Source: Colwellia sp.
GTDB lineage: Bacteria; Pseudomonadota; Gammaproteobacteria; Enterobacterales; Alteromonadaceae
Length of the DNA: 48,500 nt
Assembly (NCBI RefSeq): GCF_013215345.1
Contig: NZ_JABSOV010000025.1
Span: 1 to 48,500 of the forward strand
Direction of reading: 5' to 3'
Of the stretch, positions 44,788 to 48,500 are shown piece after piece. A program made the position numbers and the translations under genes. The notes beneath the pieces are model-generated. The model saw only the letters and a program-made list of their open reading frames with translations. It was not told the origin of the DNA and ran no database searches. Each line of letters opens with the position of its first letter. Position 1 is the stretch's first letter.

Positions 44788-45648
44788 CTACTGACGCAAG
44801 GTTCTGGCAAAGGGAGCTTGCTCAATATTACTACTTCTAAACGGGTTGATGTCTAAACCTCCACGTCGAGTGTAGCGTGCGAAAATGGTTAGCTCTTCAA
44901 GTTGACAATATTGTTGCAAGTCACAGTATATTCTTTCGATACATTGCTCATGAAATTCATTATGTTGGCGAAAGGAAATCAAATACTTTAATAGTGTTGC
45001 ATGATTTATGGCTTTACCACGGTAGTGAATATAAATACTTGCCCAATCGGGCTGATTGGTTATTAAACAATTTGATTTTAATAAATGACTCACTAAATGC
45101 TCCTCAATTTGAGCACTGTCTCCTTTTTCCTGCGCTTGTATCAGTAGTTGAGCATCATATTGATAGCTATCGATGCTGATATCTTCACCGTCGATACAAA
45201 AGCAATTGTCTAAGTTTTTAGCAATCACTAAAGCGGGACAGTGATCGACACCAAATAAACTTACTTTCGCTGGCGAGCCAGCAATTTTTGATAGATCTTT
45301 CGTTAATACTTGTTCTACTTCTTTAATGCTGGCAAAGCGCGTTTGATTAAAGCTATTTAAGTACAGCTTAAAGGACTTTGATTCAACAATATTGTCACTG
45401 GTACAAGCAAAGCGAAACTCAGCAACAGCGACTACCGGCTTACCTTTCTCATTGAGCCATGAAAGCTCATAGCCATACCAAACATCTTCGCCAACAAAGG
45501 GTAAATTGTTTGATTCTAGTGCTAAGTCATCTCTATTTAAACTTCTAGGTACTCCTTGCAGCAATTCTGCGGTATATTCGCTGCAATATTCTGTACTTTT
45601 ACCCAGTGTTAACTTGCTTAGTTCTGTCGCATTTTGATAATTGGCCAT
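44788..45648 (-). CDS. queF: NADPH-dependent 7-cyano-7-deazaguanine reductase QueF
   Basis: A 286-residue two-domain (YqcD-type) nitrile reductase that reduces preQ0 to preQ1 for queuosine tRNA modification. The QueF motif ESKSFKLYLNSF is at 89-100. The catalytic C194 lies in KSNCLITNQPDW, with D201 seven residues on, the same spacing as in E. coli (C190, D197). The length is near E. coli QueF (282). It is divergent from syd, as in E. coli; the syd upstream frame overlaps its start but the chosen syd start does not. Confidence 0.95.
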   Translation of the reverse strand: MANYQNATELSKLTLGKSTEYCSEYTAELLQGVPRSLNRDDLALESNNLPFVGEDVWYGYELSWLNEKGKPVVAVAEFRFACTSDNIVESKSFKLYLNSFNQTRFASIKEVEQVLTKDLSKIAGSPAKVSLFGVDHCPALVIAKNLDNCFCIDGEDISIDSYQYDAQLLIQAQEKGDSAQIEEHLVSHLLKSNCLITNQPDWASIYIHYRGKAINHATLLKYLISFRQHNEFHEQCIERIYCDLQQYCQLEELTIFARYTRRGGLDINPFRSSNIEQAPFARTLRQ

Positions 45649-45703
45649 AAATTTTTTCAGTAGTGAGCTAGTATCTTGCTATTTTAAAGGATCTTTTCTT
45701 TAT

Positions 45704-46300
45704 ATGACATCTACAAATAAAACTTTAGTGCAATCACTTTTAAACTTTAGTGAAGACTTTAGTCAACAGCACATAGAGCAACTTGGACACTTACCTACGA
45801 GGGAGCATGATGAACAGTGGCTATCTCCTTGTGAAGTCGGTCCACATGACAACAGTCACCATTATTGGCAACCCGTTGCTATGAAAGATGAGCCAGCAAC
45901 AGATCAAAATGCTGAAACTCTCTCTTTTAACAATGTTGAGTCGGCATTAGATCTGACACTGCATCAGGATATTAAGACCTATTTCACTACTATTTTCAGT
46001 GGTGATATAGAAGCCGTGTGTGAGGAAGGAGAGTTGTCACTTCTTTTTGCTTGGAATAGGGACGATTTTGACCGATTACAGGAAAATATCATTGGTCATA
46101 TTTTAATGAAGCAAAGATTGAAGCAAGCTGAAACTGTTTTCTTTGCTGTTACCGATGAAGAAGATATGATTATATCGGTTGATAATAGTAATGGCGAAGT
46201 TTGGGTGGAACGTGTTGGCTGTAAACCACATAAAAAACTCAGTGATTCATTAGCCAGCTTTATCGCTCAGTTAACACCAAAGAGTTTAGTTAATGAGTAG
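45704..46300 (+). CDS. syd: SecY-interacting protein Syd
   Basis: A 198-residue soluble protein that binds SecY and is thought to check the proper assembly of the translocon. I use the ATG at 45704, with AAGGA 12 bases upstream; it aligns with the E. coli N-terminus. An earlier in-frame ATG at 45641 would overlap queF and add 21 unlike residues. Family segments are DLTLHQDIKTYFTTIFSGDIEA, LLFAWNRDDFDRLQENIIGHILMKQRLKQ and SNGEVWVERVG. Divergent queF-syd order is conserved with E. coli, where csrB lies beyond syd; a csrB-like element lies about 2.1 kb further here. Confidence 0.92.
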   Translation: MTSTNKTLVQSLLNFSEDFSQQHIEQLGHLPTREHDEQWLSPCEVGPHDNSHHYWQPVAMKDEPATDQNAETLSFNNVESALDLTLHQDIKTYFTTIFSGDIEAVCEEGELSLLFAWNRDDFDRLQENIIGHILMKQRLKQAETVFFAVTDEEDMIISVDNSNGEVWVERVGCKPHKKLSDSLASFIAQLTPKSLVNE

Positions 46301-47444: not shown

Positions 47445-48116
47445 ATGAGTGAAACAGTATCGGTAGAAAAAAATGTTGATAGTAACCTAGATCAAGACGT
47501 TAATATTCGAGCAACGTATTTAAGTGCTCATGAGTTAAAGTTAGCCGCGTCACTTTTGTATCAAGCCTATCATGATGACCCTGTTTTTTTAGAAATATTT
47601 AATAGTGATAAAGAAGATTATGAACAGCGCCTTCGTGGTGCTATTCGAGAAGAGCTAAATGCTTTTTGGCAAGCAAAACAACCCATGGTTGGCTTGTATC
47701 TTGGAGAAGCCATGGTTGGCGTTGCTTGTATTAACAGCCCAGATGAAACGTTGGCAAGTGATCGTTTTTGGCATTGGCGCCTTAAAATGCTGCTAAATTC
47801 TGGTTACTTTAGTACTAAGCAAATGATGCAAAAAGAGCAAACCGTATTGGCAGCAGTACCAATGAAGGTTTTCCATTTTCTATCATTTATTGCTGTTCAC
47901 CCTTTACATCAGCAGCATGGTTTTGGCCATTACTTAATGGCCGCCGTTAATACAGTGCTAGATGAACACCCAGATAGTGAAGGGGTTGCCGTTTATGCTA
48001 CCTCAGGAAAATTTAAAGAGTTCTTTAAACATGTTGATTATCAAACGGTAAAAGAAGTCACCGTCGGAAATGTTTGTGGCTCTGTCATGGTTCATTATCG
48101 AGATAAAGCGGAATAA
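47445..48116 (+). CDS. GNAT family N-acetyltransferase
   Basis: A 223-residue protein with a GNAT fold. The acetyl-CoA-binding motif A is FIAVHPLHQQHGFGHYLM (about 148-165), whose Q-x-x-G-x-G/A loop is QQHGFG. Residues about 23-100 form the N-terminal strand-helix region and the final segment HVDYQTVKEVTVG is the usual terminal strand. The first 20 residues are a polar extension. The acceptor substrate cannot be told. The start has AGGAG six bases upstream. It is a monocistronic gene closed by a terminator, and the csrB-like element follows. Confidence 0.88.
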   Translation: MSETVSVEKNVDSNLDQDVNIRATYLSAHELKLAASLLYQAYHDDPVFLEIFNSDKEDYEQRLRGAIREELNAFWQAKQPMVGLYLGEAMVGVACINSPDETLASDRFWHWRLKMLLNSGYFSTKQMMQKEQTVLAAVPMKVFHFLSFIAVHPLHQQHGFGHYLMAAVNTVLDEHPDSEGVAVYATSGKFKEFFKHVDYQTVKEVTVGNVCGSVMVHYRDKAE

Positions 48117-48181: not shown

Positions 48182-48212
48182 AAAAAATAGCACCGATAAA
48201 GTGCTATTTTTT
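48182..48212 (+). terminator. Terminator of the GNAT gene
   Basis: Perfect 12-bp stem AAAAAATAGCAC/GTGCTATTTTTT (48182-48193, 48201-48212) with a 7-nt loop and T-run. It directly abuts the regulatory box at 48214. Confidence 0.9.
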
Positions 48213-48213
48213 T

Positions 48214-48231
48214 TGTGAGACATGTCTTACG
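48214..48231 (+). promoter_or_regulatory. GacA/UvrY/VarA-type activator box
   Basis: TGTGAGACATGTCTTACG: an 18-bp near-palindrome fitting the GacA-family pattern TGTAAG-N6-CTTACA and close to the UvrY/SirA version TGTGAGA..TCTTACA. A further TGTGAGACAT begins 22 bases on, at 48236, a spacing of two helical turns. Such boxes are nearly private to csrB/rsmZ-type RNA genes and lie far upstream of their start, as here (about 175 bases). Confidence 0.75.
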
Positions 48232-48386
48232 TCACTGTGAGACATATTGGCAATCCCTGCTGAAATCGAGAATGTTAATTTTTTATATGATTGATTTTTA
48301 TTGAGTTATTCTTATTCTCACTTGTTACATTTTTTTTACATACTAATAGTGGCCGTTAACCAGCCTCGATAACTAAGATTTACGTG

Positions 48387-48392
48387 TATTAT
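48387..48392 (+). promoter_or_regulatory. -10 element of the csrB-like RNA
   Basis: TATTAT, with the expected start about six bases downstream at 48398-48400. No clear -35 is present (GCCTCG/CTCGAT area), as expected for an activator-dependent promoter. Confidence 0.45.
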
Positions 48393-48397
48393 TAACC

Positions 48398-48500
48398 GTG
48401 TCAGGAAGACAAGGAGCAGGGGGCTTCAGCGTTACTTGTAACGTGGTTAGGGAAGATGCAATGTTGCTAAAATGGAATTGCAGCGACATAAGGACTTACT
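48398..48500 (+). ncRNA. csrB: CsrB-family CsrA-sequestering RNA, 5' part (truncated by window end)
   Basis: The first 100 bases hold repeated CsrA-type GGA motifs: AGGA at 48403, AGGA at 48412, AGGGGG at 48418, AGGGA at 48449, TGGA at 48473 and AGGA at 48491. The first sits in a TGTC-AGGAA-GACA hairpin (48399-48411), and the TGGA lies in the loop of an ATGTTGC/GCGACAT stem (48461-48467, 48483-48489). CsrB RNAs bind many CsrA dimers through such loops and relieve translational repression. Support comes from the GacA/UvrY box upstream, the lack of a long open frame and the position near syd, as in E. coli. The 3' end and terminator lie outside the window. Confidence 0.72.

Follow-up and report, generated by a model that had tools for sequence, protein, structure and literature searches.

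The window analysed here is a stretch of 48,500 nucleotides that makes up one whole contig, and its sequence stops at 48500 inside a csrB-type gene. The genes queF and syd and a GNAT-type acetyltransferase gene lie 5' of this RNA gene (Table 1), and orthologs of the last served to find 36 loci. The statement in an earlier note that E. coli csrB lies beside syd is correct, as syd is directly upstream of csrB there and queF adjoins syd. The window shows both genes upstream in E. coli-like relative orientation, with three ORFs intervening, which makes a close but not an exact match.

The UvrY/GacA box TGTGAGACATGTCTTACG was described in the earlier note as an 18-bp GacA/UvrY-type site, and the -10-like hexamer was said to follow about 155 bases further on; we find the box in this form and the hexamer 156 nt further on. 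The half-box behind the box continues into TTGGCAAT (48236-48254), a sequence common to nearly all close aligned copies and lost in more distant ones. A sigma-54-like reading of TTGGCAAT after the half-box was rejected for its wrong spacing, judged by eye. An IHF site is not claimed; its strict consensus is found in 6 of 41 copies and is absent from the window.

Table 1. Features at the 3' end of the window and neighbouring marker genes.
Feature	Position	Strand	Observation
queF (nitrile reductase), synteny marker	44788..45648	-	Matches above cut-off to Pfam QueF_N and QueF
syd (synteny marker; tentative start codon)	45641..46300	+	Pfam Syd, E 6.3e-60
GNAT-type acetyltransferase gene directly 5' of RNA gene	47445..48116	+	Pfam Acetyltransf_10, 25 bits against cut-off 23.6
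Intrinsic-terminator-like hairpin between GNAT gene and box	48183..48214	+	Read directly; also a chance STnc420 match
UvrY/GacA box	48214..48231	+	Agrees with TGTAAG-N6-CTTACA at 10 of 12 half-site bases
Second half-box TGTGAGACAT, 4 nt after box	48236..48245	+	Belongs to the pattern seen in 38 of 39 Colwellia genomes
-10 hexamer TATTAT	48387..48392	+	TATTAT/TAATAT-like position conserved across aligned copies
csrB-type RNA, first 101 nt, putative start at G48400; contig end	48400..48500	+	Box-to-start 186 nt
Hairpin 1, loop AGGAA	48400..48410	+	Paired in 25 of 25 distinct sequences, invariant
Hairpin 2, loop AGGGG	48413..48427	+	Paired in 25 of 25; changes one-sided only
Hairpin 3	48429..48444	+	Both-sided changes in 2 of 6 pairs
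Hairpin 4, GGA 48474 between arms	48462..48488	+	Both-sided changes in 4 of 7 pairs; 93.7% of cells paired

Six GGA/GGG clusters are located between 48404 and 48494 (GGA at 48404, 48413, 48451 within GGGA, 48474 and 48492; GGGGG from 48419), and the predicted loops of hairpins 1 and 2 hold two of them, both in agreement with the earlier note. Five GGA in the window's 101 nt are not exceptional, being reached in 73 of 1000 dinucleotide shuffles; at least five were counted in 11 of 9660 overlapping 101-nt stretches from the rest of the contig (10-nt steps, both strands). By themselves, the 101 nt show no more than a mild enrichment in GGA. The case rests on the relatives.

The window's last 500 bases were used to search 99 relatives (100 genomes with our own), and matches were reported in 40. 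The nearest relative, Colwellia sp. DT_22 (G034, locus L034; DT22 below), is 96% identical and has the locus intact. It possesses two tandem non-coding arrays, copy 1 of 669 nt with 39 GGA and copy 2 of 758 nt with 41 GGA. In both, a UvrY/GacA box precedes the first GGA by 190 nt, and a terminator is present. The additional GGA hairpins and the terminator that the earlier note expected past 48500 are present in the relatives, but both arrays are larger than the roughly 400 bases within which the terminator had been placed. A protein gene led by this stretch would have spoken against an RNA gene, as the note itself pointed out; no ORF of at least 60 aa lies inside the two arrays of DT22, and the next ORF (123 aa) begins about 120 nt past the terminator of copy 2.

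The genome of the window holds a part of the second copy as well. The first 661 bases of its contig C117 match copy 2 of DT22 at 98% identity and include, as far as the terminator, a 621-nt portion of the array with 33 GGA (about 630 nt of the 3' end of copy 2), so that at least 621 nt of its own copy 2 are present. About 1 kb of the DT22 locus, between the two contig ends, was not found in this genome. Both contig ends fall near a stretch common to copies 1 and 2. This points to an assembly break at a repeat but is no proof of one, and the window probably ends at such a break.

It is very probable, in our judgement, that 48214-48500 comprises the promoter region of a csrB-type gene and its initial 101 nt, with probably a second copy following in tandem, and this judgement covers the whole explanation including its mechanism. 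From these sequences we infer the following course. Phosphorylated UvrY would bind the box, whose centre lies some 178 nt 5' of the start, and would activate a promoter that has a clear -10. The RNAs would measure probably about 0.67 kb for copy 1, a length taken from DT22, and about 0.76 kb for copy 2, with some 80 GGA together. They would fold into hairpins presenting many GGA in loops, end at an intrinsic terminator and bind many CsrA dimers, by which the mRNA targets of CsrA would be freed. The earlier note regarded the RNA as CsrB-like and as the main CsrA-titrating RNA of the species. The CsrB type is supported by the complete arrays of the relatives and by the E. coli-like spacing, whereas in place of a single gene there are probably two in tandem.

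The box, four nucleotides and the half-box were found in this arrangement in 38 of the 39 genus genomes, and the reversed-pattern control in 0 of 39. GGA arrays, 53 in total, are also distributed over 38 of the 39 genomes, and none was found in G035, which is 87% complete. A box with at least 10 of 12 half-site bases stands at 50 of the 53 arrays, and terminators were found for 50. Of the three arrays without such a box, two lie near contig ends (our own copy 2 and one from G031), and the third is the second piece of a broken G021 array. Four complete arrays were tested (39, 41, 53 and 68 GGA) and lie far beyond chance, with 0 of 1000 shuffles each. The pattern was present in 57 of 196 genomes of the family sample, a family that we take to include both Alteromonas macleodii and Colwellia; outside the genus it was present in 49 of 188, where absences say little, as the pattern was built from genus Colwellia. 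A similar box and half-box without an adjacent GGA array occurs in three genomes (G019:C37:35315-35346, G034:C2:10368-10399 and G035:C377:25198-25237) and possibly denotes another UvrY target.

The CsrB model of Rfam (RF00018, gathering cut-off 71 bits) reached its cut-off in 0 of the 39 Colwellia genomes, against a GGA array in 38, an annotation gap that is filled here. The outcome of the Rfam search proposed in the earlier note speaks against its reading, although copy 2, the best in the window's own genome, has a score of 24.9 bits (E 9.3e-5). E. coli, the control, passes, as do 67 of the 197 genomes from the order. When the window and 20 loci were scanned, no match to CsrB exceeded the cut-off, and the weak Rfam matches were put down to chance or to the upstream terminator. 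Because the cut-off of RF00018 is not reached, we assign the RNA to the functional class of CsrB/RsmZ-type CsrA antagonists rather than to this family of Rfam. Many CsrB RNAs were reportedly predicted by Kulkarni et al. 2006 (cited in PMC3171408), which lies outside our literature search and may list Colwellia. The literature searched gave no earlier Colwellia csrB or oversized CsrB; PMC5471319 names both search words, and its excerpt says nothing of a Colwellia csrB.

The novelty of this RNA is its size, which in close relatives is about 2-3 times the usual length, often in tandem copies. The 25 complete Colwellia copies from 15 genomes, chosen for matching the window and not from a tree, range from 529 to 1187 nt with 25-68 GGA. 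Throughout the genus, an array of at least 500 nt was found in 19 of 38 genomes and one of 314-495 nt in the other 19, and the second array of G003 has 310 nt. Array starts were set at the first GGA, which is too early if a GGA lies upstream, and were corrected for the 25 copies used. Without this correction, 42 further loci picked by pattern from other genera of the family had an array near the box in 39 cases, 32 of them with 221-406 nt and 12-24 GGA and seven with 494-862 nt. Two yardsticks were used: E. coli csrB, which has 22 GGA and measured 361 nt against an annotated 369 nt, and, among 30 Rfam-hit loci, the longest terminator-bearing array, of 602 nt with 42 GGA, whose uncorrected start is perhaps too early. 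The size of the CsrB family is given as 100 to >400 nt (PMC6262261, in excerpt). L238 (G302:C1, reverse strand), from another genus of the family, measured 862 nt with 60 GGA, with a start probably too early by eye, and TRF found no tandem repeat in it.

The largest arrays are those of C. marinimaniae (1187 nt, 68 GGA) and TT2012 (1030 nt, 53 GGA). TRF revealed a 147-nt unit repeated 4.6 times in the former and 3.3 times in the latter, with 7-10 GGA in each unit, and an 86-nt unit repeated 2.1 times in copy 2 of DT22. Judged by these repeats, the two longest RNAs grew by tandem duplication of the 147-nt module. Fusion of two tandem genes was considered as their source and rejected, as self-comparison gives internal modules of 147-148 nt. 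Short-read assembly tends to lose tandem repeats rather than to gain them, so the modules have more probably been undercounted than overcounted. The genome G032, which we take to be C. psychrerythraea 34H and which is assembled in one contig of 5,373,180 bases, has arrays of 537 nt with 26 GGA and 652 nt with 35 GGA. With somewhat less than even confidence, we propose an accordion evolution in part of Colwellia, in which tandem gene duplication and repeated internal duplication of modules (the 147-nt and 86-nt units described above) would quickly multiply CsrA sites, up to 68 GGA per RNA and about 80 per genome, perhaps balanced by extra CsrA genes. The genus series of about 310-1187 nt and 15-68 GGA offers a testbed for how binding-site number relates to the capacity and sharpness of the CsrA switch.

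A long array might also give rise to several shorter CsrB-type RNAs through internal termination, internal promoters or processing. Terminator-like hairpins were found inside one G025 array and one G031 array, and excerpts of two papers report comparable cases, with transcripts of ~700, 600 and 450 from S. oneidensis csrB2, predicted at 421 bp (PMC3171408), and three sRNAs from a single 404-bp intergenic region in A. macleodii (PMC5864184). However, the scan places a terminator only at the end of the C. marinimaniae and TT2012 arrays and of both DT22 arrays, and no second box is found inside the C. marinimaniae or TT2012 array, and we hold such a division to be unlikely.

The csrB-type reading is supported by the conservation of structure. 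A covariation sample of 25 distinct 5' domains with 26 pairs displays changes on both sides in 9 of the 26 pairs, and 97.4% of cells are paired, where slid partners give 26-54%. Among the five summary measures, that of further pair types stands at chance level (253 of 500 shuffles). Hairpins 1 and 2, which bear the GGA/GGG loops of the window, display no covariation, conservation only, and 3 of 25 pairs covary at the 3' end. The hairpin GUGUGC-AGGA-GCAC, conserved before the terminator, is missing from L098:7373-7522 and L099:7335-7484 (C. echini, E2M01). Among 12 chosen RNA pairs, GGA is kept in 89% of aligned places versus 72% for all trinucleotides, and GTC, in 91%, is kept as often as GGA. 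In ten folded RNAs, 31-54% of GGA are predicted in hairpin loops versus 11-17% of all positions. In the complete copies of the relatives the many GGA are largely unpaired or in hairpin loops, as in a CsrB/RsmZ-type antagonist; of its own copy 1 the window has the first 101 nt. The relatives' copies are also non-coding with an intrinsic terminator, and our own copy 2 has its terminator on C117, while the 3' end of our own copy 1 is missing from the assembly.

The window fragment could be a decayed copy, the other copy alone being functional, and its box is indeed among the weaker ones with 10 of 12 half-site bases. This is very improbable given that the 5' domain and the -10 are conserved, that copy 1 of the nearest relative is of full length with 39 GGA, and that between this copy and copy 1 of GAB14E GGA is kept at 0.77 versus 0.52 for other trinucleotides. 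We know of no single leader with 26 to 68 GGA. That CsrA controls a downstream protein gene in cis through this stretch as its GGA-rich leader is hardly credible, for although CsrA acts on GGA-containing leaders (PMC7652899, in excerpt), the arrays end in terminators, those of the nearest relative are free of ORFs of the size sought, and its next ORF lies beyond the terminator of copy 2.

The csrB-type gene of the window shares with E. coli csrB (b4408) the 18-bp UvrY box, the half-box that follows, the queF-syd neighbours, the GGA hairpins and the terminator. The distance from box to start is 191 nt in E. coli (annotated start) and 186 nt in the window; the E. coli box TGTGAGAGATCTCTTACA is followed after 5 nt by the half-box TGTAGGAGAT, the window box after 4 nt by TGTGAGACAT. 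Binding of UvrY to the E. coli box is documented in the excerpt of PMC4682653, where the extra half-box is also named. E. coli csrB differs in having 369 nt, 22 GGA and one copy, whereas the RNAs of Colwellia exceed it in length, frequently occur in tandem and are too divergent in sequence for the model of Rfam. Shewanella resembles Colwellia in two neighbouring csrB genes, CsrB1 and CsrB2, with TGTAAG-N6-CTTACA boxes, and their dependence on UvrY was established by experiment; they differ in their predicted 420 and 421 bp and, in S. oneidensis, by a transposase gene between them (all from the excerpt of PMC3171408). The CsrB-like Aln1a-c of Alteromonas macleodii are the most highly expressed genes of their data set, but are three short sRNAs within 404 bp (PMC5864184, in excerpt). 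Pseudoalteromonas fuliginea, among cold marine relatives, has the Csr sRNAs Pf1, Pf2 and Pf3 with 25, 21 and 9 GGA, fewer than those of Colwellia, and outside Pseudoalteromonas neither Pf1 nor Pf2 is reported to have a significant match (PMC11882849, in excerpt). Vibrio Csr sRNA genes were likewise multiplied via duplication, but as whole-gene copies, and internal module duplication was not found in the excerpt of PMC6262261.

Genomes with many GGA sites more often carry extra CsrA genes, which we regard as a lead only. At least two full-length CsrA were encoded in 6 of 16 genomes with at least 50 total GGA versus 1 of 23 others (Fisher 0.013, uncorrected for kinship), the classes being set by hand and our own genome put in the high class though 38 GGA are seen in its assembly. 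Without this genome the counts are 5 of 15 versus 1 of 23 (0.027, likewise uncorrected for kinship). The window's own genome (G000) encodes a UvrY ortholog with 66% identity, so that UvrY and CsrA occur in one genome with a UvrY/GacA box far upstream of a promoter. Its three intact CsrA genes are located on C40 (L212:3202-3504), C241 (L213:2151-2414) and C250 (L214:2866-3063); one has a C-terminal extension (100 aa), and one follows an alaS-like ORF.
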